Virus record (IMG/VR): IMGVR_UViG_3300010396_000002 | Span: 62,001-126,000 of that record | Strand: one strand, 5' to 3' | DNA: 64,000 nt | Origin: a virus | In this document: positions 29,925 to 55,016 of the stretch, in pieces | How positions within the stretch are numbered: position 1 is the first letter of the stretch | Layout of the letters: every line of letters starts with the position of its first letter | Program-made: the position numbers and the translations under genes | The notes under the pieces: generated by a model | The model's input: only the letters and a program-made list of their open reading frames with translations | Databases searched by the model: none | What the model was told of the DNA's origin: nothing

Positions 29925-29986
29925 CACGCGCAAACCCCCGACGTCGCCTTGACGTGCGGGGGTTTGCCGATCGTAGGAGGCACACC
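29925..29986 (+). repeat. Stem-loop cassette element, copy 1
   Basis: GCAAACCCCCG pairs with CGGGGGTTTGC (29930-29940 and 29957-29967), and inside ACGTC pairs with GACGT, giving 16 pairs with one bulged G. TAGGAGG follows and the ATG is at 29987. It heads the right arm. Confidence 0.85.
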
Positions 29987-30541
29987 ATGCTCAAGTCATC
30001 CGGGATCACGGTAGAGCGTCGCGACGCGATGCGGATCGCTCCCCAGCGCGCGGAGCAACTCCGCAGCCAGCGCGCTAACGGGATGTCGAGCCGCTACGGG
30101 CACGCCCCGGTGTGCAGCAACCAGCGATGCGACGGTGAATGTCGCCTCTGCTCGGCTGACGCCGCGTCCGCTGCCCTCGTTCCGGATGACGCGGCGGACG
30201 CTCGCGCCAAGCTAGACCGCACGATCCAGCGCGCGGTCCGTCGCAACTATCGCGCGACCACGACACCGGCGGTCGTGAAGCGCACGACAGAGACCAGCGC
30301 CATCGCAGCAATGCGAGCGGGGGGACTCGCGGATCATCAGATCCGCGCCGCGCTTCTCCAGCGGACCCCCGTTGAGACCGTCGTGAGGACCGCGAACGAT
30401 GTCCGGCGCGACGTCAGGCGCGCCAAGATCGGCGCGCAAGCGATCCACGACGCGGCGACGTTCCGCCGCACGATGCAAGCGGACGAGCGGCGCGATCCTC
30501 GCGTCTACCTTGACGGCGACGCGGTCGTCATTCCCACGTGA
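29987..30541 (+). CDS. First right-arm gene; helical protein with HTH-like segment
   Basis: A 184-residue protein. MLKSSGITVERRDAMRIAPQ, then a CSNQRCDGECRLC Cys cluster near residues 40-53, and later AAMRAGGLADHQIRAALLQR followed by TPVETVVRTANDVRRDVRRA, which reads like a helix-turn-helix. The Cys cluster and HTH suggest a DNA-binding regulator. It starts directly after stem-loop copy 1 with TAGGAGG as ribosome site. Being first after the control region, it may regulate the arm (inference). Confidence 0.7.
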   Translation: MLKSSGITVERRDAMRIAPQRAEQLRSQRANGMSSRYGHAPVCSNQRCDGECRLCSADAASAALVPDDAADARAKLDRTIQRAVRRNYRATTTPAVVKRTTETSAIAAMRAGGLADHQIRAALLQRTPVETVVRTANDVRRDVRRAKIGAQAIHDAATFRRTMQADERRDPRVYLDGDAVVIPT

Positions 30542-30600
30542 ACGCGCATACCCCGGGAGCCGGAAGGCTTGCCGGGGTTACGCGATCGGAGGCACACACG
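30542..30600 (+). repeat. Stem-loop cassette element, copy 2
   Basis: Begins right after the TGA. ACCCCGG pairs with CCGGGGT; flanking CGCG sequences also pair. GGAGG precedes the ATG at 30601. Confidence 0.85.
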
Positions 30601-30780
30601 ATGATCCGCACGTTCCAAGGCGAGTATTCTGATAGTCGCACGGCACCATGCGGCAACGGATGTTGCGACGGCGCTTGCATCATCTGCGATCCGCCGCGCC
30701 CGTGCCTCGGCTGCAACGGGAAGACGCGCGACGACTCCGGTTACTGCCGGAAGTGCCGCGAACGCAACGGCGACGAGTAG
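30601..30780 (+). CDS. Small Cys-rich protein, 59 residues
   Basis: Ten cysteines in 59 residues: APCGNGCCDGACIICDPP, CLGCNG and CRKCRERN. Probably a multi-zinc ribbon. The first Cys group resembles the cluster in the preceding protein (CxxxxCDGxCxxC), so the two may share a domain. Ends in TAG, which runs into stem-loop copy 3. Confidence 0.7.
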   Translation: MIRTFQGEYSDSRTAPCGNGCCDGACIICDPPRPCLGCNGKTRDDSGYCRKCRERNGDE

Positions 30781-30835
30781 CGCACACCCCGGGGGACTCG
30801 GTCCTGCCGGGGCTGCGTCGTTGAAAGGCGGAACC
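30781..30835 (+). repeat. Stem-loop cassette element, copy 3
   Basis: CCCCGG pairs with CCGGGG; inner GGAC pairs with GTCC. GCGCA at the 5' end can pair with TGCGT after the stem. AAAGGCGG is the ribosome site. Confidence 0.85.
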
Positions 30836-31441
30836 ATGACGGACCAAGTCACGGGCGCGGACATCGCGAAGGCCATGAGGGCAGCGGTAGCCCAAGCGAG
30901 GCTAGAGCAGCTCGCCGCGGACACCGAAGCGAAGTCAGACGCGGCGGACATCTCGCGCAAGCGGGCCCGGTCCTTCTTCGCGCGCCCCACGTCCAGCCCG
31001 AACCGCGCGCCCGTCGCACGGTCGACGGATGACGAGCACAACGCGAAGGGATACCCATACGAGATCCCGGGTTTCGTGCTCGCCAACGATCGCGGTCTCT
31101 ATCTCCCCCCTGAGGGGAGCTTCTCCCGCGAGCTTGACCGCGTGTCGCCCGAGATCGAGGCGGACATGCGAGCGAACCAGATCGAACGCGAAGCCAAGGC
31201 GGCGCAAGCTCTTGCCGCGGCAGACGCGGCGGAACGCGCGTACCAGCACGCGCTCGCGACGGGCGCACGCAAGGTCGCGACGGCGTGGGTTCAAGCGGAG
31301 CGCGCACGGGCGCGCGCGGAGCGCGCTGTCGACGCGGCGAAGCCTCGGCCCGTGTTCCGCTTCGCCGGACCGAGCGACGCAAAACACGCCGGCCAGATCC
31401 AAGCTCAGCGCGGCATCGTCAAGCTCCGCCGCATGTTCTAG
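30836..31441 (+). CDS. Charged helical protein, 201 residues
   Basis: Helix-rich and highly charged: GADIAKAMRAAVAQARLEQL at the start, AANERAYQHALATGARKVAT-type helices later (AERAYQHALATGARKV), ending PSDAKHAGQIQAQRGIVKLR. The C-terminal half is probably a coiled coil. No family is recognised. Bounded by stem-loop copies 3 and 4. Confidence 0.7.
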   Translation: MTDQVTGADIAKAMRAAVAQARLEQLAADTEAKSDAADISRKRARSFFARPTSSPNRAPVARSTDDEHNAKGYPYEIPGFVLANDRGLYLPPEGSFSRELDRVSPEIEADMRANQIEREAKAAQALAAADAAERAYQHALATGARKVATAWVQAERARARAERAVDAAKPRPVFRFAGPSDAKHAGQIQAQRGIVKLRRMF

Positions 31442-31495
31442 CGCACACCCGGGGGCTTCCAAGCCGCCCGGGTTGCTGCGTGGAAGCGAGGCGCC
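31442..31495 (+). repeat. Stem-loop cassette element, copy 4
   Basis: ACCCGGG pairs with CCCGGGT; inner GGCTT pairs with AAGCC around a two-base gap. Starts immediately after TAG. Confidence 0.85.
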
Positions 31496-31843
31496 ATGCG
31501 CAAGACCATCGACGTCGTACGGGACGTGATCATCGCCATCATCGAAGCCGACCGGGAGCCTGGCACGGCTCCTACCGGGTGCGCGATCTACGAAGGCGGG
31601 GCGACCATCCTGCCGGAGCGCATCCGCGGCCGCGTGCCCAGCAAGATCAGATGGACGGCGTCCCGTGGGCAGCACGCCTGGGAGGGCGCGCTGTTCACGC
31701 TCAAGGCGCTCGGCGTCGACATCGGCCAGCCGCTCAACACCGGCGACACGATCCCGGTGAGCTGCCACTGCGGGGCAACGGAGGGCCTCCGCGAAGACCC
31801 CTACGGTGGCGGCAAGGTCTGCCCCACGCACTACCAGCCGTAA
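31496..31843 (+). CDS. Hypothetical protein with C-terminal Cys motif, 115 residues
   Basis: A helical start (RKTIDVVRDVIIAIIEADRE), a middle HAWEGALFTLKALGVDIGQP, and VSCHCGATEGLREDPYGGGK then CPTHY, a small zinc-like site. Function unknown. Flanked by stem-loop copies 4 and 5. Confidence 0.7.
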   Translation: MRKTIDVVRDVIIAIIEADREPGTAPTGCAIYEGGATILPERIRGRVPSKIRWTASRGQHAWEGALFTLKALGVDIGQPLNTGDTIPVSCHCGATEGLREDPYGGGKVCPTHYQP

Positions 31844-31900
31844 GCGCACACCCGAGGGCCTGACGGCTGCTCGGGTCGTGCCGTCGAAAGGACGGTCACC
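31844..31900 (+). repeat. Stem-loop cassette element, copy 5
   Basis: ACCCGAG pairs with CTCGGGT, a compensatory change relative to copy 4 (ACCCGGG/CCCGGGT). Begins right after TAA. Confidence 0.85.
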
Positions 31901-32074
31901 ATGTCCAAGCTCTGCGCCAGCATCGTCATCACGTGGGCCGCCGGCCTCGTCGCCGGTCTGCTCATCCGGTCCAGCGCGGGACAGCACGGGCTGCTCCCGA
32001 GCCTCGCGATCGTGGTCGTGTCTGCCGGGGCAGCGGGCGCCATCTTCGCGCTCACTGCGGGGAGCCGGTCATGA
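31901..32074 (+). CDS. Small membrane protein, two TM helices, 57 residues
   Basis: Two hydrophobic segments, SIVITWAAGLVAGLLI (residues 7-22) and LLPSLAIVVVSAGAAGAIFA (31-50), joined by a short SSAGQHG loop. Start ATG directly after stem-loop copy 5 with a GGACGG-type ribosome site; the stop overlaps the next start (ATGA). Holin-like in topology, but unassigned. Confidence 0.65.
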   Translation: MSKLCASIVITWAAGLVAGLLIRSSAGQHGLLPSLAIVVVSAGAAGAIFALTAGSRS

Positions 32075-32373
32075 GAAAGGACCGCGTCATCAAGTTCTCC
32101 ACCGGCGGCTATGTGACCGAGAAAGACGGGCGCCGCCGTGCGAAGTTCACCAGGAAGGAGGCACACGATGAAGCTCGCAAGATCCGTGCAGGCGATGGCC
32201 GGTGCACCGTCGTGAGGCTCGTCCCGCCGGTGATCAACGTGACGATCAAGCTCCAGATCCGCGGGATGGCCGGTACCGTCTGGGACATGGTCGAGGACGC
32301 GCTCGATGCTGGCGACGTTCAGGAAATCTTCAACAGCTCGGAGACGCTGGTCCTCTCCGCCGTATCCGAGTAG
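32071..32373 (+). CDS. Hypothetical protein, 100 residues
   Basis: A basic N-terminus with RKDRVIKFSTGGYVTEKDGR, then strands (CTVVRLVPPVINVTIKLQIR) and an acidic helix (VWDMVEDALDAGDVQEIFNS). Coupled to the membrane-protein gene by a four-base overlap and followed by stem-loop copy 6. Function unknown. Confidence 0.7.
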   Translation: MRKDRVIKFSTGGYVTEKDGRRRAKFTRKEAHDEARKIRAGDGRCTVVRLVPPVINVTIKLQIRGMAGTVWDMVEDALDAGDVQEIFNSSETLVLSAVSE

Positions 32374-32431
32374 CGCATACCCCGGAGGCTTCTTGCCTGC
32401 CGGGGCTGTGCCGTCAGGAGGGCTATCCGCC
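32374..32431 (+). repeat. Stem-loop cassette element, copy 6
   Basis: CCCCGG pairs with CCGGGG; inner AGGC pairs with GCCT. Starts directly after TAG; AGGAGGG is the ribosome site. Confidence 0.85.
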
Positions 32432-32773
32432 ATGAATGACAAGATCCCCGCCGTGTTCGAGAACCTGACCGCAGCGTCCCCGCTGGATGACCTCTGTGTC
32501 GCGGCCTATATCGCCGCCGCAAACGCTGCCCGCGAGGACATGAAGCCGCAGCGTGCGGGAGCGTGCCTCGCCTCGGACGATGCGACGATCGCTTACTTGC
32601 GCGCCCCATCGACGCGCTCCTGCCTGGAGGACTGGCTCCAAGCGTACCGGCACGACGAGGGCGTCCTGACCGCGCTGTCCGACGATGCACGCACCCAGGT
32701 GCTCGCCTCGGCATGGCGCGCATACGAGGCAACCGTGATGCAAGCGCGCGACGCTGCGCGGGCCGGTACCTGA
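32432..32773 (+). CDS. Helical hypothetical protein, 113 residues
   Basis: Mostly helical and Ala-rich: PLDDLCVAAYIAAANAARED and VLASAWRAYEATVMQARDAA. No motif is recognised. Flanked by stem-loop copies 6 and 7. Confidence 0.65.
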   Translation: MNDKIPAVFENLTAASPLDDLCVAAYIAAANAAREDMKPQRAGACLASDDATIAYLRAPSTRSCLEDWLQAYRHDEGVLTALSDDARTQVLASAWRAYEATVMQARDAARAGT

Positions 32774-32831
32774 GCGCACGCCCCCGACCGGAAACGGTGC
32801 GGGGGTCGGCGCATTGAAGGAGGCCGACACC
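32774..32831 (+). repeat. Stem-loop cassette element, copy 7
   Basis: CCCCCG pairs with CGGGGG, and inner ACCG-GAAA-CGGT carries a GNRA-type tetraloop. Follows TGA; GAAGGAGG is the ribosome site. Confidence 0.85.
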
Positions 32832-33695
32832 ATGATCTGTCCTGGCTACGACGACTGGAAGACGACCGAGGACCACATCGAGGTGCCCGCAGGCTCCTCC
32901 CATGCGGCGCCCGCTGGCCGCTACCAGGGCCCCGACGCGGCCGGGGATCGGCCGTGCATCGACACGACGGGCATGACCGAGTCGGAGATCGCCAGGTACG
33001 CGGCCGCCGGCGCCGATGCCGTGGCGGAAGCCGAGGCGCTCCGAGAGGACCACGTCGACGGCGGCGAGCCGTTCGACCCGAAGGCGTTCGCCGCGGCGCT
33101 CGAGTTGGAGCTCGACCGGAACGCGGATCCGAACTGCACGCTCTGCAAGGGCCGCGGCGTCGTCGTTCAGAAGCACGACGGGCCCGGTGGCGAGCGGCTC
33201 ACGTGCGACTGCGTGCTGTCCCCTGAGCGCGTCGCCGTCATCGCTGCGGCCGAGGCTGCCGGCCACGAGAAGATCGCGCCGCGCGCGCGGGACGCCACGG
33301 CGGAGCAGCTCGCTGACTGGTGCGCCTCGCGCCATGCCGCCGCCGAGGTCGAAGGCCAGCGCGAGCTAGGCGCGGCGATCCGAGCCTACTGGGCGAGCGA
33401 GCCGGCGATCCTCGCGGTGCGCCGGCACCCATGGGCCGACATCTTCATCGCAAACCACGACGGGGCCACGTGCGGGACCTGCCTCCCGTCGGGGATCGAC
33501 CTGAGCGATCCAACGGTCGAGGTCTTCCAGGTTGGCAGCGACGGCTGGACGGGCCCGGTCACCTGCACGAAATGCGGCAGACCGATCGACGTCGTCGTCG
33601 ACGGGATGAAGGCCGTCGCCGATGGCAAGGACGACGAGTCCGTGCTGGCGGAGCTCAAGCCCGTCGTCGAGCGGCTCAACGAGAAGAAGGGCTGA
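32832..33695 (+). CDS. Hypothetical protein with two zinc-like Cys pairs, 287 residues
   Basis: Residues about 95-125 contain CTLCKGRGVVVQKHDG...CDC, resembling the CxxCxGxG repeats of DnaJ-type zinc fingers; a second site near 200-240 is CGTCLPSGIDLSDP with TCTKCGRPIDV. In between are acidic helices (SEIARYAAAGADAVAEAEAL). No enzyme motif is seen. The real stop is 17 bases before a second TAG that adjoins stem-loop copy 8. Confidence 0.7.
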   Translation: MICPGYDDWKTTEDHIEVPAGSSHAAPAGRYQGPDAAGDRPCIDTTGMTESEIARYAAAGADAVAEAEALREDHVDGGEPFDPKAFAAALELELDRNADPNCTLCKGRGVVVQKHDGPGGERLTCDCVLSPERVAVIAAAEAAGHEKIAPRARDATAEQLADWCASRHAAAEVEGQRELGAAIRAYWASEPAILAVRRHPWADIFIANHDGATCGTCLPSGIDLSDPTVEVFQVGSDGWTGPVTCTKCGRPIDVVVDGMKAVADGKDDESVLAELKPVVERLNEKKG

Positions 33696-33713
33696 CGGTC
33701 GAGCGACCCATGT

Positions 33714-33768
33714 AGCGCAGAGCCCCGGACCGGCAAGGTCGCGGGGCTCGACGCCGTGGAGGTGTTCG
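33714..33768 (+). repeat. Stem-loop cassette element, copy 8
   Basis: GAGCCCCG pairs with CGGGGCTC; inner ACC pairs with GGT. A TAG at 33713-33715 adjoins the GCGCA flank but does not end the upstream gene, so it looks like a retained boundary. GGAGG points to the ATG at 33769. Confidence 0.85.
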
Positions 33769-34034
33769 ATGCGAACCGTCTTCAATACGCCGTTCCCATC
33801 ACCGACGACATCGAGATCGAGATGCACAAGGGGGCCACGCCGCTCTCCTTCCAGGAGCAGCACGGGGCCGCATGTGTCTGGGCCCTCGTCGATACGGAAG
33901 CTCCGAAGACGATGCGCCGCTTCCGGCTCGCCGGCACAGGGCATACGCTCGACGCCGACGACGGCACGTACGTTGGGACCGCGCAGTTCCGCGGCGGCTC
34001 GCTCGTCTTCCACCTGTTCGTCTACCCCGAGTAG
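33756..34034 (+). CDS. DUF7352-like small beta protein; start/frame uncertain
   Basis: The core PITDDIEIEMHKGATPLSFQ, CVWALVDTEAP and RRFRLAGTGHTLDADD with YVGTAQFRGGSLVFHLF follows the pattern I recall for the DUF7352 family (ite.iemP.GA..L..q...g...lWalVD, GTGH, GT.q..ggslVFHvf). In this frame the only starts are GTG 33756 or 33762. The ATG 33769, correctly placed after GGAGG, is in another frame and reads MRTVFNTPFP; one missing C in the CCC at about 33793-33795 would join it to PITDDIEIEM. Either the start is GTG or there is a one-base deletion. Confidence 0.7.
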   Translation: MEVFDANRLQYAVPITDDIEIEMHKGATPLSFQEQHGAACVWALVDTEAPKTMRRFRLAGTGHTLDADDGTYVGTAQFRGGSLVFHLFVYPE

Positions 34035-34085
34035 CGCACGCCCCGGGCCTCGACAAAGGCGCCGGGGCTCAGTGCGTGGAGGTGC
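34035..34085 (+). repeat. Stem-loop cassette element, copy 9
   Basis: CCCCGG pairs with CCGGGG; inner GCCT pairs with AGGC; GCGCA can pair with TGCGT. Starts right after TAG. Confidence 0.85.
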
Positions 34086-36359
34086 ATGATGCGCAACCAC
34101 GCGCTCCTCGCGCTCGCGAGGTACGCCAAGACTTTCGGCAAGGGCTCCCCATTCGATGCCCTTGGCTGCGTCCTCGTCGACGGCCACATGGCCGAGGCGA
34201 CGGACCTCTACACCAGAGTACGCATTGAGCTGCCGGAGCCCGTCATCGACGGGGCGCCGGCCATGCTCGAGGCGGGCTGGCTCGTCGACGTCGTGAAGCT
34301 GTCGGGCAAGGTCCCGATCAAGCTGACCAGCGTCGATCCGACCGAGATTCCCTGCGTCCATGAACCGGCCAAGCTCCAAGCGGATGCCGACGGCGCGATC
34401 CTCAAGATCGTAGCGAAGACGCCCGCCGCAGAGTTTCCGCGCCCGCTCCGGCCGTTCGACATGCCGGCGCGCGCGGACCTCGAGCCTGGCGACTTCGCCA
34501 AGGGCGGGCCCGTCGCAGCGGTGCTGCGGGCCGTGTCCACGGACACGGCCAGGGCAGCCCAGAGCGCGATGCTCTTCGACCGCGACAGGGCGGTTGGTAC
34601 CGACGGGCACATGCTCTGCGTGCGCAAGTTCGCGCGCGCGCTGCCATTCCCTGACGTGCTCGTGCCCCGCGCCGCGGTCGAGATCCTGCTCGCCATGTGT
34701 GCAAAGTTCGCTCCGCTGGAGCTCAGGGTCGAGGTGACCGGAACCGATGCCAGGTTCACCGGCACCTGCGCCGGGGGCCTTCGCTGGTCCGTCACCACGA
34801 AACTGGCGGATGCGAAGTTCCCGTCCTACCAGCAAGCGCTCGTCGAGCCCGACACGTTCACAACGGTCGACGTCGGCGAGCTGCGCGGCATCGTGCGTGG
34901 GCTCGGTGACTGGCGCGTCGCCATCTTCCCCGACGGGGGTGTCGTCGCCTTTGAGGGGCTGAACGGCAGCGGTGACGCCGCGATGTTCTTCCCCGCGGAC
35001 CAGCCACCGACGGAGCCGCCTCTGGTCGTGCTAGGCAAGGGCACGCTCGGCGCCGTGCTCGACATGCTCCCCAAGGAGGGCACGATCGAGATCGGCACCA
35101 GCGCAGCGGAGAAGGCGGCGGACAAGGACCGCCTGACGCCGGCGCTGGTCGATGGCTTCGTCCTGATGCCGATGAAGTACCCCGAGCTGCCTACAGCGGT
35201 CGCGGCTGCCGTCAAGGCTGCCTATGCGAAGCCCGCGCAGCCCACCGACTGGAAGCAGTGGGATGGCTTCAGGGTGTCGGACGGTCCGACGTTCCCACGA
35301 GAGGTCAACGTCGACGGGAAAGAGACACTCCCAGATCGTTGGCTTCCCTTCCACCTCGGAGCACCGGCCGAGGACGACTGCAAGCTCACCGGGCGGCTCG
35401 ACCCGCCCACGTTCACGAAGCCCCTGTGGGGGCAGGAGGAGACCATGCCCGATCCGAAGAAGGCGGCCCAAGCCGCCGCCGCAGCCCAGCAACCCAAGCA
35501 GGACAAGCCCACCAAGGCGCCAAAGGCCAAGGCCAAGGCCGCCGCAGCGGCCGCGCAGTCGCCGCAGACGGAGGCCATCCGCCAGACCGGCGCGCCCACG
35601 TTCGCGGTTGGCGCCACGGTCCGCCGCGGCCAGGAGGTCGGCACCGTCAAGGAGCTGATCGAGCCCTCGCCCGGCTGGCATCGGGCGAGAGTCCAGTGGC
35701 CGGGGTCGGAGCAGTTCGTCGACATCGACCAGCTCACCGTGGAGCCGGTGGCCTCGAGCGCGCAGCCCGTGCCCCCGCCCCCGGCGAGCGGTCCGCGGGT
35801 CGTCCAGGGCTCGACCAGGCGCGTCTTCACGGTCGGCCAGATGGGGCTGCCGTCGCTGGACAAGCTGGCGGAGCTCGCGCTCTGGCTCGGCGTCTCCGCG
35901 GTGCTCGACACCAGGACCCAGCCCCCGAAGAAGGGGCCATGGACCACGGCGGGCGTCGAGGGCGCGACCTTGACGGGGGCCGGCTGCCCCGTCGTGCGGA
36001 GCAACGTCGCCACCCCGATCGCCGACCAGATCGCGGCGCTCCCCGCGGGGTCGGTGTTGCTCCTCGGGATGGACTGGGCTCCGGGCGACAACGCGGCCTT
36101 CATGGCCCTCGCCGAGGGCACCGACTTCGAGGTGCTCCACGTCTGCGTCCTCGACAAGGCCGAGCTGACGAAGCCGCTCGCCGCGCACGAGGAGCCCTCG
36201 GCGAGGTGGGACGAGGTGCAGTGCATCGACCACGGCCAACTCGTCGACTTCATCGCCGGCAAGATCACCGATTACGGCGCCTACAACGTCAGCGCCGAGT
36301 TCGTGGACCCGCTGCCGCCCCGGAGGCCGGTCCTCGCGCTCGCGACGGGCACGGCGTGA
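34086..36359 (+). CDS. Sliding-clamp-like protein fused to a DUF488-like C-terminal domain
   Basis: A 757-residue protein. Residues about 1-370 resemble DnaN-type clamps: repeated units such as AVLRAVSTDTARAAQSAMLF, AVGTDGHMLCVRKFARALPF, LRVEVTGTDARFTGTCAGGL and KFPSYQQALVEPDTFTTVDV. After an Ala/Lys/Gln-rich linker (about 455-500) and an SH3-like segment (AVGATVRRGQEVGTVKELIE), residues about 578-735 (RRVFTVGQMGLPSLDKLAEL, VSAVLDTRTQPP) resemble the DUF488 family (TIGhs, lvDvR..P). An in-frame ATG at 35445 with GGAGGAGACC upstream could start a separate 304-residue product. The combination is unusual. Confidence 0.75.
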   Translation: MMRNHALLALARYAKTFGKGSPFDALGCVLVDGHMAEATDLYTRVRIELPEPVIDGAPAMLEAGWLVDVVKLSGKVPIKLTSVDPTEIPCVHEPAKLQADADGAILKIVAKTPAAEFPRPLRPFDMPARADLEPGDFAKGGPVAAVLRAVSTDTARAAQSAMLFDRDRAVGTDGHMLCVRKFARALPFPDVLVPRAAVEILLAMCAKFAPLELRVEVTGTDARFTGTCAGGLRWSVTTKLADAKFPSYQQALVEPDTFTTVDVGELRGIVRGLGDWRVAIFPDGGVVAFEGLNGSGDAAMFFPADQPPTEPPLVVLGKGTLGAVLDMLPKEGTIEIGTSAAEKAADKDRLTPALVDGFVLMPMKYPELPTAVAAAVKAAYAKPAQPTDWKQWDGFRVSDGPTFPREVNVDGKETLPDRWLPFHLGAPAEDDCKLTGRLDPPTFTKPLWGQEETMPDPKKAAQAAAAAQQPKQDKPTKAPKAKAKAAAAAAQSPQTEAIRQTGAPTFAVGATVRRGQEVGTVKELIEPSPGWHRARVQWPGSEQFVDIDQLTVEPVASSAQPVPPPPASGPRVVQGSTRRVFTVGQMGLPSLDKLAELALWLGVSAVLDTRTQPPKKGPWTTAGVEGATLTGAGCPVVRSNVATPIADQIAALPAGSVLLLGMDWAPGDNAAFMALAEGTDFEVLHVCVLDKAELTKPLAAHEEPSARWDEVQCIDHGQLVDFIAGKITDYGAYNVSAEFVDPLPPRRPVLALATGTA

Positions 36360-36393
36360 TCCTGCTCCACCGTCCTCGTGACGATGCCTTAGA

Positions 36394-36451
36394 CTGAACG
36401 CGCAGGGCCCGGGGCTACCAAGCCGCCGGGCTCGGCGCGTTGGAGGACCCG
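36394..36451 (+). repeat. Stem-loop cassette element, copy 10
   Basis: GCCCGG pairs with CCGGGC, inner GGCT with AGCC, and outer ACGCGC with GCGCGT. A TGA at 36395-36397 adjoins the flank though the upstream gene ended 36 bases earlier. GGAGG precedes the ATG. Confidence 0.85.
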
Positions 36452-36796
36452 ATGAACGAGTTCGAGAGCAAACGAGAGGCCGCCTACCGCGCCGAGATCG
36501 AACGGGCCAGGTCCAACGGTCGCTACTACATCGGCTGGCGCTCCGCGAGCTACTGCTCCGACGCATCGTGGGCCGTAGCCGCGACGGAGACCGACGCCCG
36601 TGCGTTCGCCTCGCTAGGCGCACCATTCGCGGTCGGTGTCTTGTCGGTCGACGACACGCCGCACGGGCGCGAGTTCGGACGCATCGGAGCATGCGGAGGC
36701 AACGCGCCTCCCGATGCACTGCGGGACGTGATCCTGCGCGGTGCGGAGATCGCCAACGTCGGGACGATCCCCGGCACCAGGATCGTTGCACACTGA
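36452..36796 (+). CDS. Hypothetical protein, 114 residues
   Basis: A charged helix (FESKREAAYRAEIERARSNG), then an aromatic segment RYYIGWRSASYCSDASWAVA, a beta-rich part and DALRDVILRGAEIANVGTIP. No family is recognised. Bounded by stem-loop copies 10 and 11. Confidence 0.7.
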   Translation: MNEFESKREAAYRAEIERARSNGRYYIGWRSASYCSDASWAVAATETDARAFASLGAPFAVGVLSVDDTPHGREFGRIGACGGNAPPDALRDVILRGAEIANVGTIPGTRIVAH

Positions 36797-38508: not shown

Positions 38509-38516
38509 CACCAGCC

Positions 38517-39045: not shown

Positions 39046-39048
39046 GCC

Positions 39049-39996: not shown

Positions 39997-40019
39997 CGCG
40001 GGCAGAGGAGATCGATCCC

Positions 40020-48041: not shown

Positions 48042-48238
48042 GGCCGCAGAAGTCCCCGGCGAAGCGCCTGGAGAAAGCGCGTGCGAGACGGCGAGACTTC
48101 TCCGCGCGCGGGTCGACCTGCCCGCTCTGCCGCCAGGAGTTCCGAACGTGCGAGCACACGATCCAGCAGGCCATGGACCGGCTGGACGAGGACGTGACGC
48201 TCGCCGAGGTCGAAGCAGCGAAGGACCGCTCACAATAG
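48038..48238 (+). CDS. Small zinc-like protein, 66 residues
   Basis: Basic N-terminus (RPQKSPAKRLEKARARRRDF), CPLCRQEFRTCEH (CxxC...CxxH, zinc-like), then an acidic helix. Ends in TAG followed at once by element copy 20. Confidence 0.65.
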   Translation: MRPQKSPAKRLEKARARRRDFSARGSTCPLCRQEFRTCEHTIQQAMDRLDEDVTLAEVEAAKDRSQ

Positions 48239-48294
48239 GCGCACGGCTCGGGCTCCCATCGGGGGGCGCCGAGCTTGTGCACGTGGAGGAGAAC
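48239..48294 (+). repeat. Stem-loop cassette element, copy 20
   Basis: GCTCGG pairs with CCGAGC, a different sequence from other copies but fully paired; inner GCTCCC pairs with GGGGGC. GGAGGAG precedes the ATG. Confidence 0.85.
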
Positions 48295-48663
48295 ATGAAG
48301 ACGCGAACAGGTTGGGTTGTGTGCGGAGTAGCGGATCAGACATGGGCCTACATGGCGAAGCCCGAGAGTGGCTTCGGGCTACCCGAGGATCGTCACACCT
48401 TCACCATCGAACCGAGCGAGGCGCACATCATCCGGGCAACGGGCCGCGAGGAAGCGGCCAGGAGGGCGAGCGCGATCCTCGGTCGCAAGGTCGGTCTCGG
48501 TCTGCCGAGCCCTGGAGACCGGCGAGTCGGCGCGCTCGCGCCGGGGCTCGGTGCCGCCCTGCCGCCGAGCATCGCCTCCGAGGCCAACGAGTCTGACGCG
48601 GGCGAGTGGCTCGAGTTCGTGCGCGACGTGCGGGCCTTCCGCAACGGGCCGGCGACATGGTGA
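48295..48663 (+). CDS. Hypothetical protein, 122 residues
   Basis: KTRTGWVVCGVADQTWAYMA, SEAHIIRATGREEAARRASA, then a Gly/Pro/Arg region and GEWLEFVRDVRAFRNGPATW at the end. No family is recognised. Bounded by element copies 20 and 21. Confidence 0.7.
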   Translation: MKTRTGWVVCGVADQTWAYMAKPESGFGLPEDRHTFTIEPSEAHIIRATGREEAARRASAILGRKVGLGLPSPGDRRVGALAPGLGAALPPSIASEANESDAGEWLEFVRDVRAFRNGPATW

Positions 48664-48714
48664 GCGCATCCCCGAGGGCCGCAGGGCCGCTCGGGTTGAG
48701 CCCGTGGAGGTACC
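48664..48714 (+). repeat. Stem-loop cassette element, copy 21
   Basis: CCCGAG pairs with CTCGGG; inner GGCC pairs with GGCC around GCAG. GGAGG precedes the ATG at 48715. Confidence 0.85.
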
Positions 48715-48972
48715 ATGCCGGACACCACGGACGAGGACATCATCCGCATCACCGTCGACGTCGAGAGGTGCGGCCGCTCCACCAGGACCAAGGCGTCGAG
48801 TTGGGCCTACGTCGACGCGCCGCCCAACGTGCGCCGCCACATCGCCCCCGAGACGTTCGTCGAAGCCGTCGCCGAGCTCGTTGTCAACGGCTACACCGTC
48901 ACCGTCGAGCCGAAGATCGAGGACATCTCGCTCCTCGACTGGTACGGCGGCCAGCTTCCCACCGGAACGTGA
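48715..48972 (+). CDS. Small acidic protein, 85 residues
   Basis: DTTDEDIIRITVDVERCGRS, then VAELVVNGYTVTVEPKIEDI. Alternating strands and acidic residues. No family is recognised. It follows element copy 21. Confidence 0.65.
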   Translation: MPDTTDEDIIRITVDVERCGRSTRTKASSWAYVDAPPNVRRHIAPETFVEAVAELVVNGYTVTVEPKIEDISLLDWYGGQLPTGT

Positions 48973-48987
48973 GAGGATCGAACCACC

Positions 48988-49329
48988 ATGAGCGACGTCA
49001 GCAACGACCGCGATATGCGCCTCGCCCAGGAGATCGCGAGCCGCTGGCCCACCCACGGTGACTGGGCTTTCGACTACATGTACCCCGGCTTCTTCCGGTA
49101 CTACTCGGACAGGTTGGGGTGCTCGGTGTTCTTCACGCCCGACTTTAACGAAGAGGGGGCGCTCGACATGCAGCTCCAGGACGATGTCGGGAACGCCATC
49201 GACAACGACGTGATCCCCTACGCCTTCGTCAAGTACCAGGAGCCGCTGACCGCCGACTTCATGCACGACGAGGTCGTCAAGGCGCTGGCGCTCGTCGATG
49301 CCTACTACATGCAGGCCGCGAAGCCATGA
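48988..49329 (+). CDS. Hypothetical protein, 113 residues
   Basis: RDMRLAQEIASRWPTHGDWA, YMYPGFFRYYSDRLGCSVFF, then acidic strands and an ADFMHDEVVKALALVDAYYM helix. No family is recognised. The end overlaps the start of the Mom-like gene (ATGA). Confidence 0.7.
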   Translation: MSDVSNDRDMRLAQEIASRWPTHGDWAFDYMYPGFFRYYSDRLGCSVFFTPDFNEEGALDMQLQDDVGNAIDNDVIPYAFVKYQEPLTADFMHDEVVKALALVDAYYMQAAKP

Positions 49330-50068
49330 GCATCGACAACGCCACCATGCGCTGGAAGTACGGCCGCGAGGGGTTCTTGCTGGACCTCGAGCGCGGTGTC
49401 TTCAACCCGAGCGGGTACGATGTCGTGCGCGTGCGCGAGCAGAGCGGCTCGGCGGCCTTCGTCGGCGAGCACCACTACTCGGGGACCTGGAAGGGCGGCG
49501 GGCTCGTCTTCGACCTGATGCACCACGCGAAGCGCGTCGGCGTCGCCGTCTACTCGCAGCCCGGCGGGCCCAAGGTGCTCGGCGCCTGGTTCCCCGGCCA
49601 CGAGAAGACCTCGCTGGAGCTCAGCCGACTCGTGCTGCTCGACGAGGTTCCATTCAACGCCGAGACGTGGATGCTCGCCCGCACGCGCGATCTTCTCTGG
49701 CGCGACGGGTACACCGGGGTCGTGAGCTACTCCGATCCGATGCCGCGCCCGCGCGCGGACGGGAGCTTGCTCTTCCCCGGCCACGTCGGGACGACCTACA
49801 AGGCCGCCTCCGCGATCTATACGGGCCAGACCAAGGGCGAGGCCCAGTGGCTCTTCCGGGACGGCACCGTCTTCCCGTCGCGCGACCGGACCAAGATCCG
49901 CGCCTTCGCCTTCGGGCAGGACACGTGCAAGGGCTGGGACTACGCGAAGGACGTGCTCCTCGCCCAGGGGGCCCCGCCGTTCGAGTTCGCCTTCGGCGAC
50001 GAGCGAGCGTCCGCCTGGTGCGACTCATCATTGCGGGCGTCAAGCAGCCCGCGTTGCCGTTCACCTGA
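49326..50068 (+). CDS. Mom-like DNA modification protein (3' end probably frame-shifted)
   Basis: HHYSG at 49-53, the hydrophobic GGPKVLGAWFPGHEKTSLEL followed by SRLVLLDEVPFNAETWMLAR (100-119), GVVSYSDP at 131-138 and GHVGTTYKA at 152-160 match the Mom family of phage Mu, whose members modify adenine (methylcarbamoylation) and protect phage DNA from restriction. Near 49990-50010 the frame that continues with FEFAFGDERA turns into Cys/Ser-rich sequence running 52 bases into the next gene. One missing base near 50010 would give VRLVRLIIAGVKQPALPF with a TGA at 50066-50068. If no base is missing, the same frame runs to 50129. Confidence 0.85.
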
Positions 50069-50077
50069 GGAGGGCGC

Positions 50078-50305
50078 ATGCCCATCGACGCGAAGGCCGT
50101 GCGGCCCGGCGACATCACGTACCACCTGAACATGGATCCGGAGAGCGCGCAGGTGCGCGTCCGAGGCGAGCCTTGGGCCATGCTGCTCTGGCACAACGGC
50201 GTTGCCAGGGTCGAAGGCTACCCCAACAACACCATCGACGGCGCCCGCGCCGACGTGCTCCTGATGCTCTCAGCGGAGGCCCTGAAGCGGGCCAGGAAGA
50301 GGTAG
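50078..50305 (+). CDS. Small hypothetical protein, 75 residues
   Basis: PIDAKAVRPGDITYHLNMDP, VRGEPWAMLLWHNGVARVEG and a helix (ARADVLLMLSAEALKRARKR). GGAGGGC precedes the ATG. No family is recognised. Confidence 0.7.
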   Translation: MPIDAKAVRPGDITYHLNMDPESAQVRVRGEPWAMLLWHNGVARVEGYPNNTIDGARADVLLMLSAEALKRARKR

Positions 50306-50310
50306 TTGCC

Positions 50311-50559
50311 ATGGCTGACACGCAAGCAGGTCGCAAGTTCAAGCCCGGCGACCGGGTCGACTGGACCCGCATCTACAAGGTGAGCAACGTCACCGAGCGC
50401 TGGCGACGCGTCTTCGGAGACGGCCCGTACACCGTCAAAAGTGTTGAGGTCGATGCGACCGACAACCCGCTGATCACCATCAAGCCCAACAAGAGGCCGC
50501 CGCCTGGCGAAGACCTTACATTCACCGAGTCGTGGTTCGACAAGGTCGGTGCCACGTGA
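50311..50559 (+). CDS. Small SH3/Tudor-like protein, 82 residues
   Basis: GRKFKPGDRVDWTRIYKVSN and GPYTVKSVEVDATDNPLITI then KPNKRPPPGEDLTFTE. This pattern (K.GD.V.w....G.y.V..ve) recalls small KOW/SH3-type barrels. Ends in a GTGA overlap with the next gene. Confidence 0.65.
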   Translation: MADTQAGRKFKPGDRVDWTRIYKVSNVTERWRRVFGDGPYTVKSVEVDATDNPLITIKPNKRPPPGEDLTFTESWFDKVGAT

Positions 50560-51032
50560 GCGCGCCCAAGCCAATCCCTGCCGCGCTGGAGGACGTTGGC
50601 GCCGTCGTTCGCCGGTGCTGGCCCGGCTGTGCCGAGGTGCAAGGCGTCGACCCGGTCAAGGTGCGCGTCGAGGTCGTGCCCCACGTCGAGCGGCGACAGC
50701 ACGGTCACCGCCGTGGATGGGAACTCGTCATCGCTCGCGATCCGGGACACGGCGGCACCCTGCGGGCCATCGAGAACGCGCGGGCGATCGAGGAGCTTGC
50801 TCGGAGCTTCGAGGACGCCGGCTTCGACGTCCTCCGCCACGAGGACGGCCGCCGTGTCGTGCTCGGCTGGACGCGTAGCTCCGAACCGCACAGGAAGGGG
50901 ATGCGGGCGCGCCTCGTCGAGCTTGGGCCGTGGCACCCGGACCGGGACCGTCGCCGAGCTGAGCTGCTCGCACAGCGCAACCCGCGCGCAATCGCCGAGA
51001 TGACCGGCCACGCCGCTCCGACCAGTGAGTAG
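50556..51032 (+). CDS. Hypothetical protein, 158 residues
   Basis: APKPIPAALEDVGAVVRRCW, CPGC-like CWPGCAEV near residue 25, VKVRVEVVPHVERRQHGHRR and ENARAIEELARSFEDAGFDV. The C-terminus is basic. No family is recognised. Located between the Mom-like and DpdA-like genes. Confidence 0.65.
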   Translation: MSAPKPIPAALEDVGAVVRRCWPGCAEVQGVDPVKVRVEVVPHVERRQHGHRRGWELVIARDPGHGGTLRAIENARAIEELARSFEDAGFDVLRHEDGRRVVLGWTRSSEPHRKGMRARLVELGPWHPDRDRRRAELLAQRNPRAIAEMTGHAAPTSE

Positions 51033-51035
51033 GCC

Positions 51036-51809
51036 ATGCGCGCCGGGAGCTTCTTCCTCGGCACGCACATGCCGGGCTGGCTCGCCGATCCACGCTTCGC
51101 TGAGGTCCCGCTCTTCGTCTCCCGCCGGAGGCTCGTCAAGCGGCGCACACTCCCCCGAGCCAAAGGCCGCTGGGCCTGCGACTCGGGCGGGTTCATGGAG
51201 CTGTCCCTCTTCGGCGGATGGACCGTCGGGCCTCGTCAGTACGCCGGCGAGATCCGCAGGTTCCGCGACGAGATCGGCGGCATGGCGTGGGCCGCGCCGA
51301 ACGACTGGATGTGCGAGCCCGGCATCCTCCGTTCGACGGGCCTCGACGTCGTCGAGCACCAGCGGCGCACCGTCGCCAACCTGCTGGAGCTCCGGTCCAT
51401 CGCCCCGGACCTCCCCTTCGTGCCGGTCCTTCAGGGCTGGCAGGTGGACGACTATCTACGATGCGTCGATGCGTACGACCGCGCCGGCGTGAACCTCCGC
51501 AAGGAGCCCGTCGTCGGCGTTGGCACGGTCTGCCGGCGCCAGAACACGACGGAGGGAGCGCGAATTGTCCGCAAGCTCGCCGGCCTTGGGCTCAAGCTCC
51601 ACGGCTTCGGCTTCAAGGTGACGGGGCTCAGGGCGTGCGGAGACGCGCTCGTCAGCGCCGACTCGTTGGCCTGGTCCTTCCGGGCTCGCAGATCGGATCC
51701 GCTTCCAGGTCACTCCCACAAGTCGTGCGCGAACTGCCCCGACTTCGCGCTAGCATGGCGCGGGGAGATCGAAGCGGGGCTCGTACCCAGGCAACTCGCC
51801 CTGTTCTAG
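51036..51809 (+). CDS. DpdA-like (DUF7221/TGT-related) DNA-modification protein
   Basis: A 257-residue protein. FFLGTHMPGWLADPR near the start, LPRAKGRWACDSGGFMELSL at 39-58, QYAGEIRRFRDEIGGMAWAA, APNDWMCEP at 87-95, PVLQGWQVDDYLRCVDAY, VGVGTVCRRQ and LHGFGFKVTGL are the blocks I recall for phage proteins annotated as DpdA-like, relatives of tRNA-guanine transglycosylase that put 7-deazaguanines into DNA. No preQ0 synthesis genes are in the window, so substrate supply is unknown. It directly precedes a PP-loop gene. The family name comes from memory of motifs. Confidence 0.8.
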   Translation: MRAGSFFLGTHMPGWLADPRFAEVPLFVSRRRLVKRRTLPRAKGRWACDSGGFMELSLFGGWTVGPRQYAGEIRRFRDEIGGMAWAAPNDWMCEPGILRSTGLDVVEHQRRTVANLLELRSIAPDLPFVPVLQGWQVDDYLRCVDAYDRAGVNLRKEPVVGVGTVCRRQNTTEGARIVRKLAGLGLKLHGFGFKVTGLRACGDALVSADSLAWSFRARRSDPLPGHSHKSCANCPDFALAWRGEIEAGLVPRQLALF

Positions 51810-51819
51810 AAGGTGGTGC

Positions 51820-52769
51820 ATGGAGCAACTCGGCCTCTTCAAGGCGCGCGCCATCAAGGTGCGCAAGGTCGCCAGGAAACGGAAGCGGCCCGAGGCGCCA
51901 CCGCTCGAGGCCTGGGACGGCAACCCACGCGTGAAGGTCGCCTCGATCGGGGGCGGCCTCTCGACTCGTTCGCCATGCTCGTCGACCGCGTCCAGCATGG
52001 CGAGGTGCCCGAGCTTGCGATCTTCGCGGACGTGACCGATCCGGAGCGGAAGGACCCCGGGGAGTGGCCGGTCACCTACCAATACCTCCGGGAGGTCGTG
52101 ATGCCGTACTGCGACCAGCACGGCATCGAGTTCGATTGGCTCGACACGACGCGCTCGCCCATCCGCGGGCACCGCTCCCTGTTCGGCTACTTCGCCGCCA
52201 TGCGCCTGATGCCGAGCCGCATGAGCCGGCTGTGCACCTCGGCAGCGAAGGTCGAGCGCGTCACCGACGAGCTGATCCAGCGCTACCCCACCAGGCCCGT
52301 CGAAGTGTGGGTCGGCTTCGAGGCGGGCGAGGAGATCCGCCTCAAGCGCGACCCGCACGCCGCCGGCGTTGTCGGGCTCGCCGGGAACTGGCGCGTCAAC
52401 CGCTTCCCGCTCATGGAGCGGAACCTCTGCCGGTGCAGGTGCGAGGACGTGCTGAAGGCTGCCGGCCTCCCGGTGCCTCCCGGCAGTGCGTGCATGCTGT
52501 GCCCCTACAGCACGCGCGGCGACTTCAAACGGCTCGAGCATCAAGAGCCCGAGGCATTCGCCTTCGGAGAGCGCATGGAGGACAACTGCCAGCGCACGAA
52601 GAAGAACGACAAGGTCATGCGCTACGGCTACGAGAAGGGCGACGGCACCGACCCGCCGCTCCGGCTCTGGGTCGAGAAGCCGTACACGCCCAGGGTCATG
52701 CCGTGCGAGGTCTGCGGTCGCCCTGAGCGCGCCCGCAAGAACGTGGGCTGCGACTACATCGCAGCATGA
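51820..52769 (+). CDS. PP-loop (PAPS-reductase-like) protein, frame broken in the PP-loop
   Basis: From ATG 51820: MEQLGLFKARAIKVRKVARK ... WDGNPRVKVASIGGGL, then the frame goes to shadow sequence. Two bases further the +2 frame continues DSFAMLVDRVQHGEVPELAI...FADVTDPERKDPG and the whole C-terminus, including CRCRCEDVLKAAGLP, SACMLCPYSTRGDFKRLEHQ and CEVCGRPERARKN. The expected GGGLDSFAM PP-loop needs removal of two bases: the sequence reads CCTCTCGACTCG where CCTCGACTCG would fit. This is a TC duplication or an assembly error. About 316 residues when repaired. Confidence 0.75.
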
Positions 52770-53044
52770 TGGAGGACGCATTGGACGAGAAGCCGTGCAC
52801 GATCGATGGCGTCGACTACCCGAGCTGTGCGGCAGCGGCGAGGGCGCTCGGGGTCACGTACCAGGCCATCCAGAGCCGCATCAAGACCCGACTGAACGGC
52901 GGACCACACAAGCGAGGTCGCAAGCCGAAGGCCGTCACGCTCGATGGCATCACCGCAACGCTGGACGAGCACGCGACGCGCCTTGGCATTTCGCGATCGG
53001 CGGTGTGTGGACGCGCCAAGCGACGCGCCAAGCGAGCGAAGTAG
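52766..53044 (+). CDS. Tandem helix-turn-helix (NUMOD-like) protein
   Basis: Two similar units: TIDGVDYPSCAAAARALGVT with YQAIQSRIK, and TLDGITATLDEHATRLGISR with SAVCGRAKR. Each is a short strand followed by a helix-turn-helix as in NUMOD1-type DNA-binding modules of homing endonucleases. No nuclease domain is attached. A Lys/Arg-rich end (KRRAKRAK) follows. Confidence 0.75.
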   Translation: MMEDALDEKPCTIDGVDYPSCAAAARALGVTYQAIQSRIKTRLNGGPHKRGRKPKAVTLDGITATLDEHATRLGISRSAVCGRAKRRAKRAK

Positions 53045-53104
53045 AAGCGCACAGCCCGGACCTCGACAAGAGGTGCCGGGCTTCGTGCGTCGAGGAGGCA
53101 GACC
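53045..53104 (+). repeat. Stem-loop cassette element, copy 22
   Basis: AGCCCGG pairs with CCGGGCT; inner ACCTC pairs with GAGGT around GACAA; GCGCA faces TGCGT. GAGGAGG precedes the ATG at 53105. Confidence 0.85.
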
Positions 53105-53677
53105 ATGCCGAAGACCAAGCAGAAGCCCGTCAGCGAAGCCACGATCGCCAAGGTCGCGAAGGAGACTGGCAAGCCGTTCAATGACGGCGGCGCATACATG
53201 AGCAGCCGCTTCAAGGACTGGACGGGGTGCGTCCGGTACCTGTTCACGCTCACCAGCGACCCGAAGCGCGTCGAGGACTTCCTGCGCTCCAAGAACATGC
53301 GCTGGTGCAGCGACAACCGCGCGAGGAGCGGGAAGGCGACCGTCGCCGACCTCAAGCGATACATCGCGCACTGGCTGTCGAAGCCCGGGTCGATGGGCTC
53401 CGGGATCGTCGAGATCCTCGGGATCGATGTGCCCAATTCGCCGATCCCGGATGCCAAGGCGGTGACGCTCGAGGCCGCCATGAACGCCGGCAGGCTGAAG
53501 GCCTGGGACGCCTTCCTCCAGATCGCCGAGACGGCGCGCGTCATCCAGGAGACGGCCACCCGGAGCCCGACGGATCCGGCAGCGCTTGCCGAGGTGTCGC
53601 GGCTGGTGTCGATCCTGCGCATGACGACGCTCGTCTCCGAGCCCACCAAGCCGAAGCGCCCGGCGAGACGCCGGTGA
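53105..53677 (+). CDS. Hypothetical protein, 190 residues
   Basis: EATIAKVAKETGKPFNDGGA, RVEDFLRSKNMRWCSDNRAR, a helix LKAWDAFLQIAETARVIQET and a basic C-terminus (TKPKRPARRR). No family is recognised; helical, possibly DNA-binding. Confidence 0.7.
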   Translation: MPKTKQKPVSEATIAKVAKETGKPFNDGGAYMSSRFKDWTGCVRYLFTLTSDPKRVEDFLRSKNMRWCSDNRARSGKATVADLKRYIAHWLSKPGSMGSGIVEILGIDVPNSPIPDAKAVTLEAAMNAGRLKAWDAFLQIAETARVIQETATRSPTDPAALAEVSRLVSILRMTTLVSEPTKPKRPARRR

Positions 53678-53823
53678 GCGTCTTCCTCACGAAGCCCAGG
53701 CGCCGCGTCCAGCCCCATCCGCGCCGGAAGTGCGCGTGGTGCTCGAGGACCGTGGCGCACGGGCCCCGCAACGATCCCTACCCCCACGACTGCATAGGCG
53801 TCTATCACTGGAGGCGACCATGA
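53674..53823 (+). CDS. Very small zinc-like protein, 49 residues
   Basis: SVFLTKPRRRVQPHPRRKCA, CAWCSRTVAHG and DCIGVYHW give CxxC...H/C. GTG 53674 overlaps the preceding stop; the end overlaps the next ATG. Confidence 0.6.
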   Translation: MSVFLTKPRRRVQPHPRRKCAWCSRTVAHGPRNDPYPHDCIGVYHWRRP

Positions 53824-54011
53824 AGAAGAGGATCCGCATCGAGGCCGACGCACTCGGCCGCATCCGTTTGCGCGACCATGCCACCGGCCAGATCCTGGAG
53901 AGCGAACTCCGGACGCCTGACCTCTCGGCGCTCGTCGGGCATCGGATCGAGACCGGCACCGTCTGCAACGACGGCTCGATCGTGTTGGACCTCGAGCACG
54001 AGCCGTCATGA
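53820..54011 (+). CDS. Small beta-rich protein, 63 residues
   Basis: KKRIRIEADALGRIRLRDHA and TGTVCNDGSIVLDLEHEPS. Four or five short strands; unknown family. Overlaps the PP-loop gene by four bases (ATGA). Confidence 0.6.
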   Translation: MKKRIRIEADALGRIRLRDHATGQILESELRTPDLSALVGHRIETGTVCNDGSIVLDLEHEPS

Positions 54012-54922
54012 ACCTCCACCAGTGGCTCCGGATGCCCGAGGCTTGGCGCCCTCCGATCGTCGTGTCGGACGGTATGGGCGTAGATTCGCAGGGCGTGCTG
54101 CTCCTACTCAAGCGCCTGGGGATCAGACCCAAGGCGGTGCTCCACGCCGACACAGGGAACGAGAAGGAGGTCACCATCCAGGCCAGGGAATGGCGTCGGC
54201 GCTGGCTCGCCGAGAACGGCTTCCCGGAGCTGACGATGGTCCGCCGACCCCCTGGCGTTTCCAAGAGGACCGGGCTCCCCTACGCGACGATCGCCGAGAA
54301 GGCCATCGCCTACGAGATTTATCCAGGGATCACCTTCGACAAGCACTCGTGCTCGAAGGAATGGAAGATCGACCCCATGGATGACTGGGTCCTCGCCCAG
54401 CCTTGGGCGAAGACTGCCATCGCGCGGGGCCAGGGCGTATGGCGCGTCATCGGCTACGACGCCGGCCCCAAGGATGCGCGCCGTGGTCACGAGATCCACG
54501 ATGATCACCGCTTCCGGTTCATCTATCCGCTACGCGACGTGAAGTGGGACCGCGGGCGCATCCAGTACGAGCTCTCTGTCGAGGGGATCCGCCAGTTCCC
54601 GAAGAGCGCCTGCAAGATTTGCAAGGCGAACAAGCCGTGGGAGATCGCCCAGATCGTCGCGCACGATCCGAAGGGGGCCGACGAGATCATCGCCGTCGAG
54701 GCCGCCGGCGCCGCACGTGGCCGCACCGTCGAGGGGCTATGGGGGCGCACCGTGAAGGGACAGCGCGGCGCCGTGCCGCATCCCGGGCGGATGACGGACT
54801 TCATCAACCAGCTCCGTAGCGACCCCGCAGAGTTGAAGCGGCACCTCGCCATGGCCCCCCGGTTCGAGGTGAACGGCAGCCTGTGTGACAGCGATGGTGG
54901 CGACTGTCACACAGACGCTTGA
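54008..54922 (+). CDS. PP-loop (PAPS-reductase/DndC-like) protein
   Basis: A 304-residue protein with the PP-loop SDGMGVDSQGVL at 20-31, then VLHADTGNEKEVTIQAREWR (ADTG motif typical of the family), RRRWLAENGFPELTMVRRPP and a Cys site CKICKANK near residue 203. The family transfers or cleaves via an ATP-activated intermediate (PAPS reductase, DndC, IbrA). Which of these applies is not readable. It is the third PP-loop gene in the window. The C-terminal codons lie in the TGTGTGACAG inverted repeat. Confidence 0.85.
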   Translation: MNLHQWLRMPEAWRPPIVVSDGMGVDSQGVLLLLKRLGIRPKAVLHADTGNEKEVTIQAREWRRRWLAENGFPELTMVRRPPGVSKRTGLPYATIAEKAIAYEIYPGITFDKHSCSKEWKIDPMDDWVLAQPWAKTAIARGQGVWRVIGYDAGPKDARRGHEIHDDHRFRFIYPLRDVKWDRGRIQYELSVEGIRQFPKSACKICKANKPWEIAQIVAHDPKGADEIIAVEAAGAARGRTVEGLWGRTVKGQRGAVPHPGRMTDFINQLRSDPAELKRHLAMAPRFEVNGSLCDSDGGDCHTDA

Positions 54923-54945
54923 CCAGCCCGCTCGACTGTCACACA
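54882..54945 (+). repeat. TGTGTGACAG/CTGTCACACA inverted repeat plus a third copy
   Basis: TGTGTGACAG at 54882-54891 and CTGTCACACA at 54904-54913 form a perfect 10-bp inverted repeat at the gene end; CTGTCACACA recurs at 54936-54945 in a CGACTGTCACACA direct repeat 32 bases away. Confidence 0.6.
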
Positions 54946-54959
54946 CTCGGTTCGGACGA

Positions 54960-55016
54960 CACGGCGCGCAGCCCCGGAGCACCCACGCTCGCGGGGCTCG
55001 TCGCGTCAGGGGCGCC
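54960..55016 (+). repeat. Stem-loop cassette element, copy 23
   Basis: AGCCCCG pairs with CGGGGCT; inner GAGC pairs with GCTC; flanks GCGCGC and CGCGTC. The ATG at 55017 starts a six-codon reading frame ending at TGA, and the real gene starts at 55034. Confidence 0.8.

Follow-up and report, generated by a model that had tools for sequence, protein, structure and literature searches.

In this study, a family of hairpin elements was investigated in a 64,000-nucleotide stretch of viral DNA, hereafter the window, which corresponds to bases 62001-126000 of the 155,559-base viral metagenome record IMGVR_UViG_3300010396_000002. The window phage carries 23 of these elements on the plus strand of its non-structural arm, and with two distantly related phage records the family comprises 76 copies in three divergent phages. 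Our data provide evidence that the RNA structure of the sense strand is under selection, and that the element is associated with the starts of translation units, one element per unit, with a fixed geometry and conservation across the three phages. The hairpins of this one arm look like a shared, previously undescribed signal for viral gene read-out, and the proposal that each is a cis-acting messenger RNA (mRNA) leader hairpin, heading a translation unit and acting on initiation, has in our judgement about an even chance of being right. The data cover three metagenomic phage records, with genes assigned by our own simple heuristic caller; the viral collections scanned may omit near copies of the window's own record, and the covariance-model E-values are rough.

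Selection on the RNA fold of the sense strand

A covariance model of 49 positions and 11 pairs (R1) was built from a structure-free alignment of the 23 window elements. When searched against both strands of the whole 155.6-kb record, it recovered exactly these 23, all on the plus strand at window 29928-55012 and scoring 37.3-58.8 bits, with the next candidates at 18.4 bits or less, except for the reverse strand of a palindromic copy at 41.2 kb. The left arm and the rest of the record contained zero elements on either strand. An earlier note on this DNA had listed 23 elements of one plan at these places on the plus strand and none in the left arm, and both statements were borne out.

The element opens with GCGCA at its 5' end and, 7-8 nt from its start, enters a 6-7-bp outer stem that is almost strictly Watson-Crick. 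Within it lies a 3-8-bp inner stem, opened by a purine-pyrimidine pair and capped by a small loop, often UUCG or GNRA; one G, on the 3' side, bulges out where the two stems meet. About 10 nt, including a CGT able to pair with the GCG, then lead to the Shine-Dalgarno (SD) sequence. The structure-free alignment of the 23 shows no variation in columns 1-3 (GCG) or in either base of the last pair of the outer stem; that stem aligns gap-free, and a single G precedes its 3' strand. Folding all 76 elements gave an outer stem of mostly 6-8 bp, an inner stem of 4-5 bp in 59/76 and a 4-nt loop in 49/76, and the first interruption met outward from the loop is a single 3'-side G in 67/76. This unpaired G was missing from the earlier note, as was the outlying character of the copy at 41232. 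Against dinucleotide shuffles, the mean z-score of the minimum free energy was -4.1 over the 76 copies.

The two further records with elements were reached through DNA pattern scans of viral contigs. The first relative, G001 (IMGVR_UViG_3300035695_000001, 162,811 bases), holds about 38 elements according to a model made from the window phage only, all on the plus strand, in a run that begins at 148.9 kb, passes the end of the record and continues to 21.3 kb. The second, G014 (IMGVR_UViG_3300042090_001664, 82,332 bases), holds 13 by the same model and 15 by a refined covariance model (R2), on a single strand at 50.1-60.1 kb. The covariance scan of related phages that the earlier note had suggested was productive in both distant relatives. 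Of the 243 window-phage proteins, 74 match G001, mostly at 30-65% identity, and the structural genes of G014 match either other phage at roughly 30-73%. The window phage encodes a terminase, a contractile sheath and a baseplate wedge protein; searches for relatives with the terminase and sheath returned the two phages G001 and G014 only, without close isolates, and no close relative was found among 50,697 deposited phage records. The eight best single matches in other viral contigs, viewed in context, were chance-like or different hairpins, and there were no arrays among them. One of the eight, on an unrelated viral contig (L022:2787-2833), is a GCGCAAGCCCCGG hairpin with a U tract and then an SD, a terminator-like hairpin directly before a start, which has a similar look and is of a different kind.

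Covariation was pronounced in each set examined. In the window set, 96.6% of cells are paired and 9 of the 11 pairs have changed on both sides, with a covariation score of 0.578 against 0.188 in shuffles and 0.122 or less on sliding. The G001 elements alone gave the same paired share (96.6%) and a score of 0.632 against 0.174, and 67 elements taken jointly gave 97.3% of 694 cells paired and 0.585 against 0.182. Double changes in this joint set number 154 against 44.6 in shuffles and collapse upon any slide of 1-3 columns. We also wrote an R-scape-like test, an average-product-corrected (APC) G-test on a structure-free MAFFT alignment of the 76 elements, with a tree-aware null in which the substitutions of each column were re-placed on the element tree in 40 simulations. 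The top eight column pairs of the alignment all belong to the structure, four at E<0.025 and a fifth at 0.05. The same tendency is visible between the G001 neighbours 12734 and 13532, which are near-identical save for compensatory inner-stem changes (GGACC/GGTCT vs GAGCC/GGCTT). The earlier claim that structure is kept rather than sequence stands, as compensatory changes dominate, and covariation, whose lack had been set beforehand as the finding that would speak against it, proved significant in the in-house test.

The fold belongs to RNA. Among the 49 tetraloops, the sense reading gives 12 UNCG and 10 GNRA loops and the antisense reading 0 and 2; sense folds are stabler than antisense folds (p=1e-7); and the pair adjoining the bulge is purine-pyrimidine in 70/72 elements, 20 of these being G-U, a pair found in only 6 of 427 outer-stem positions. 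Because of the sense-biased loops, the stabler sense folds and the G-U pattern at the bulge, the element is read as an RNA fold of the sense strand and not as a purely DNA-level palindrome. An attC-like recombination site, a REP-type mobile palindrome or homology for cassette exchange is therefore very unlikely, though genes between elements are largely replaced across the phages while the elements persist, and the neighbouring copies at 38408-38519 flank a probable lost gene. Every copy lies on one strand, the AAC/GTT core pair is absent at element ends, a Y1 transposase occurs in one phage only and far from the array, and no tyrosine recombinase of family PF00589, as in IntI, was found in the three phage genomes, though a host could supply one. 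Elements of orthologous genes are, moreover, no more alike than random pairs. The cassette-exchange role offered in the earlier note found no DNA-level signal, given these unlike orthologue elements, the loop bias, the G-U pairs and the lack of an integrase.

Two specific candidates of this class were also rejected: integron attC sites, since the RYYYAAC/GTTRRRY core does not fit and the invariant 5' end is GCG(CA) with no AAC, and REP/RAYT palindromes, since the elements occupy a single strand and PF01797 was found in G014 only. The IS200/IS605-type Y1 transposase of G014 lies at 23865-24227 within the structural region, with none in the other two phages. It is extremely unlikely, too, that the paired changes arose without selection, by template-switch correction of quasi-palindromes. 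Outer-stem double changes nearly lacking G-U intermediates would agree with such an artefact, but correction would erase the bulged G as well, which is kept in 67/76 copies, and position, spacing and loops are stereotyped.

Placement at the starts of translation units

In the three phages, same-strand gaps of 40-120 nt within the arm bear an element in 20/21, 29/32 and 9/9 cases (58/62 in total). By comparison, coupled junctions (gap of 10 nt or less) bear one in 0/43 cases, and gaps of 40-120 nt outside the arm in 0/47 over the three records. The earlier note had named an equal frequency at random non-junction sites as counter-evidence, and comparable elements were absent there. An SD and start codon lie downstream of 71/76 elements, a stop codon lies within 12 nt upstream in only 51/76, and the arm's first gene bears an element in all three phages without any gene upstream, so that the element belongs to the start of the translation unit. 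The description of the elements as lying at gene junctions needs correction, since they are tied to gene starts instead: the copy at 29928 has no upstream gene, and the one at 38408 has no downstream gene, only a short tail ahead of the next element.

The spacing is equally regular, with 7 or 8 nt from element start to outer stem in 66/72 elements, 9-12 nt between a 6-bp outer stem and the SD in 53/67, and 20-27 nt from the outer stem end to the start codon in 56/67. ATG is the start of 65/67 headed genes versus 60/93 other arm genes, a difference to which partial bias may contribute, as our start calls favour ATG.

The individual copies of the window phage, all on the plus strand, are given with their window coordinates and R1 scores. 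Element 1 (29928-29977, 46.4 bits) stands ahead of the arm's first gene (29987), and is followed by element 2 (30544-30592, 54.0 bits) ahead of gene 30601, element 3 (30780-30827, 50.9 bits), which overlaps the G of the upstream TAG stop, ahead of gene 30836, element 4 (31441-31487, 49.2 bits) ahead of gene 31496, element 5 (31844-31890, 52.2 bits) ahead of gene 31901, element 6 (32373-32420, 49.3 bits) ahead of gene 32432, and element 7 (32774-32820, 49.0 bits) ahead of gene 32832. Element 8 (33715-33762, 50.7 bits) precedes a gene starting at about 33756-33769, element 9 (34034-34082, 49.5 bits) gene 34086, element 10 (36400-36446, 52.8 bits) gene 36452, element 11 (36797-36852, 45.1 bits) the topoisomerase-like gene 36858 (phrog_6247), and element 12 (37753-37801, 53.9 bits) gene 37836. 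Element 13 (38408-38463, 41.5 bits) has no intact downstream gene and is probably the remnant of a lost one, while element 14 (38519-38569, 52.6 bits) and element 15 (38799-38847, 51.1 bits) head genes 38577 and 38854. The outlier, element 16 (41232-41282, 37.3 bits), displays an extended palindromic outer stem of 13 bp and a bulge C instead of G. Next come element 17 (42132-42181, 58.8 bits) ahead of gene 42190, element 18 (42820-42866, 48.4 bits) ahead of gene 42875, element 19 (47453-47505, 47.4 bits) ahead of gene 47511, element 20 (48239-48289, 47.3 bits) ahead of gene 48295, element 21 (48664-48710, 49.9 bits) ahead of gene 48715 and element 22 (53047-53096, 48.6 bits) ahead of gene 53105. 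The arm's last copy, element 23 (54964-55012, 50.5 bits), precedes a gene at 55034/55040.

Some copies and their surroundings deserve separate mention. Two pairs of elements lie only about 110-140 nt apart (window 38408-38569; G001 153826 and 153965), with a short coding tail or minimal open reading frame between them, and these are probably remnants of a lost gene whose header was left behind. Perfect long palindromes without the bulged G occur at window 41232-41282 and at G001 153016, where the stem reaches 18 bp. Where the arms diverge, directly ahead of the first element, about 1.3 kb (28604-29927) contain no called gene and are likely a promoter or origin region, and just ahead of the last element an inverted repeat, TGTGTGACAG...CTGTCACACA (54885-54925), is found at the 3' end of gene 54008-54922. 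Pfam named 2 of the 20 arm proteins tried. A methyltransferase-like gene lies at 41302-42111, and possible DNA-modification genes are present in 45152-54922, namely a C5 methylase (PF00145), a DpdA-like protein (PF23859, 2e-85) and two PAPS-reductase-like proteins (phrog_424).

Possible role in translation initiation and competing explanations

In the proposed mechanism, the non-structural arm would be read as a long rightward transcript carrying translation units, each made up of one gene or of several consecutive genes that are coupled in translation. The hairpin would act post-transcriptionally on the unit downstream, most likely in translation initiation, with the outer stem, G bulge and GCG flank being recognised by a ribosome-associated or RNA-binding factor. 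The end of the hairpin, some 20-27 nt before the start codon, would fall near the expected upstream edge of the 30S footprint. That initiation would be affected, and not processing or stability, is our inference. Shuffling the hairpin barely alters the predicted openness of the SD and start, which, together with the kept bulge, GCG and spacing, points to a recogniser. Element identity is 0.568 within phages and 0.572 between them (permutation p=0.76); a consensus this steady, in the face of widely diverged proteins, suggests a host-encoded or otherwise invariant recogniser more readily than a phage protein that evolves fast.

Several points weigh against a role in initiation. Predicted SD/start accessibility is nearly the same with the native and the shuffled hairpin (0.490 vs 0.474, p=0.056), so that no simple thermodynamic benefit is apparent; in the 51/76 copies noted above, the element lies no more than 12 nt behind a stop codon, a frequent proximity that also fits a role at the upstream 3' end; and both the function and its recogniser are proposed from sequence, with heuristic gene calls underneath.

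The accessibility values bear most directly on a simple insulator, in which the hairpin would lock up local G+C-rich sequence and leave the SD free without any recogniser. The G+C content of the region is about 0.69, the hairpin lies directly ahead of the SD and the accessibility trend is slightly positive, yet the gain over shuffled elements (0.016) is negligible, and the kept bulged G, the GCG flank and the absence of elements from gapped junctions elsewhere would be left unexplained. Thermodynamic insulation of the SD was rejected on account of this negligible gain, and we consider the insulator improbable as a whole. Stimulation of stop-codon read-through by the hairpin was likewise rejected, as element-to-start distances take all values modulo 3.

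The chief rival is processing by a host RNase, or more broadly punctuation of the transcript for processing and stability. A host enzyme of the RNase III type, which acts at early gene boundaries in T7, would cut the hairpins, or the hairpins would shield the transcript from it, and every unit would thereby obtain a separate mRNA whose ends are protected. This is a somewhat unlikely explanation, with translation control ranked first, ahead of processing of the downstream unit. One strong hairpin per unit, its site at boundaries, the kept bulge and the frequently abutting stop codon suit it. Neither an RNase III gene nor a NusG paralogue was found in the phages. With RNase III missing there, cutting would fall to a host enzyme, and a consensus without drift would be compatible with that. 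On the other side, at about 11 bp, with a weak base of 3-4 bp added, the helix is on the short side for a classical RNase III substrate, and processing requires neither the invariant GCG nor the fixed SD spacing.

Transcription attenuators or U-less terminators between genes are quite improbable. Intergenic hairpins that are stable and G+C-rich could serve in this way, but the 12 nt after the stem contain 6 T or fewer (mean 2.8), zero terminator-like sites coincide with elements in window 29.0-43.0 kb, where such sites are fewer than in shuffles, and an element stands ahead of the first gene while nearly all are coupled to an SD. The partial termination entertained in the earlier note is therefore unlikely, whereas its remark that no promoter or U tract is visible agrees with these counts and with the search for sigma-70-like promoters in window 29.0-43.0 kb, which found 0 against 0.7 in shuffles and concerns the sigma-70 type only, other promoter types being possible.

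A wider and more tentative possibility is a genome-wide RNA header system, in which the phage lineage would mark almost all translation units in one arm by a common hairpin, defined by its shape and recognised either by a host factor or directly by the 30S subunit. Were this true, swapped-in foreign genes could be expressed under one common post-transcriptional control. The elements make a clean case for asking whether one post-transcriptional signal can govern dozens of viral genes, and by what route a gene exchanged between phages gains expression at once; they may also offer a portable leader element for G+C-rich bacteria.

Relation to known systems

Rfam 15 gave no match at gathering score in the whole window and none at E<=1 in window 29900-39000, and no description of such elements was found in the open-licence literature. 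The promoter-stem-loop (PeSL) cassettes of T4-type phages combine an early promoter and a stem-loop between genes, in a non-structural region that is variable and where gene turnover is high. The present hairpins share this intergenic setting in such a region; unlike PeSL, they come with no sigma-70-like early promoter and are coupled to the SD of the gene that follows. In the T7 early region, RNase III sites are few and long; they are bulged or internally looped hairpins that lie at the gene boundaries of the polycistronic early mRNA. Our hairpins are also bulged and at gene boundaries, but they are short, number 15-38 per genome and keep a fixed distance to the SD.

Structured 5' untranslated regions and standby-site hairpins upstream of the SD, such as that of tisB, are individual leaders in which structure beside the ribosome's upstream landing area influences initiation (PMC7708055; PMC3936740). 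The likeness lies in that position, whereas here one shared fold is repeated ahead of dozens of unrelated genes.

Nearest in place and habit are the start-associated sequences (SAS) and extended SAS (ESAS) of cluster K mycobacteriophages, of which a dozen or more per genome occur upstream of start codons with an SD, in one orientation and in the non-structural half only, at genes with gaps above 50 bp and a preference for ATG, and for which a role in translation initiation was proposed (Pope et al. 2011, PMC3203893). The present elements likewise lie immediately upstream of starts with an SD, in a single orientation and in the non-structural half. SAS is a conserved 13-bp sequence, GGGATAGGAGCCC, and ESAS consists of 17-bp inverted repeats conserved in sequence (PMC3203893); a GGGATAGGAGCCC-type consensus is absent from the alignments of our elements and from their flanks up to the start. 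The earlier note had cited ESAS as a structural precedent, which does not hold, as its discoverers find no support for RNA pairing in the departures within the repeats and prefer to see these as DNA-binding sites (PMC3203893). In our elements, by contrast, it is the letters that vary, while covariation maintains an RNA fold that includes a bulged G and RNA tetraloops, and the consensus does not drift between phages, unlike that of ESAS, which differs between subclusters. Start-associated phage repeats have been known since 2011 without a mechanism and without support as RNA structures, whereas in the present, unrelated family the RNA structure is clearly selected, in 76 copies from three divergent phages with a simple anatomy of outer stem, bulged G, GCG flank and SD spacing.

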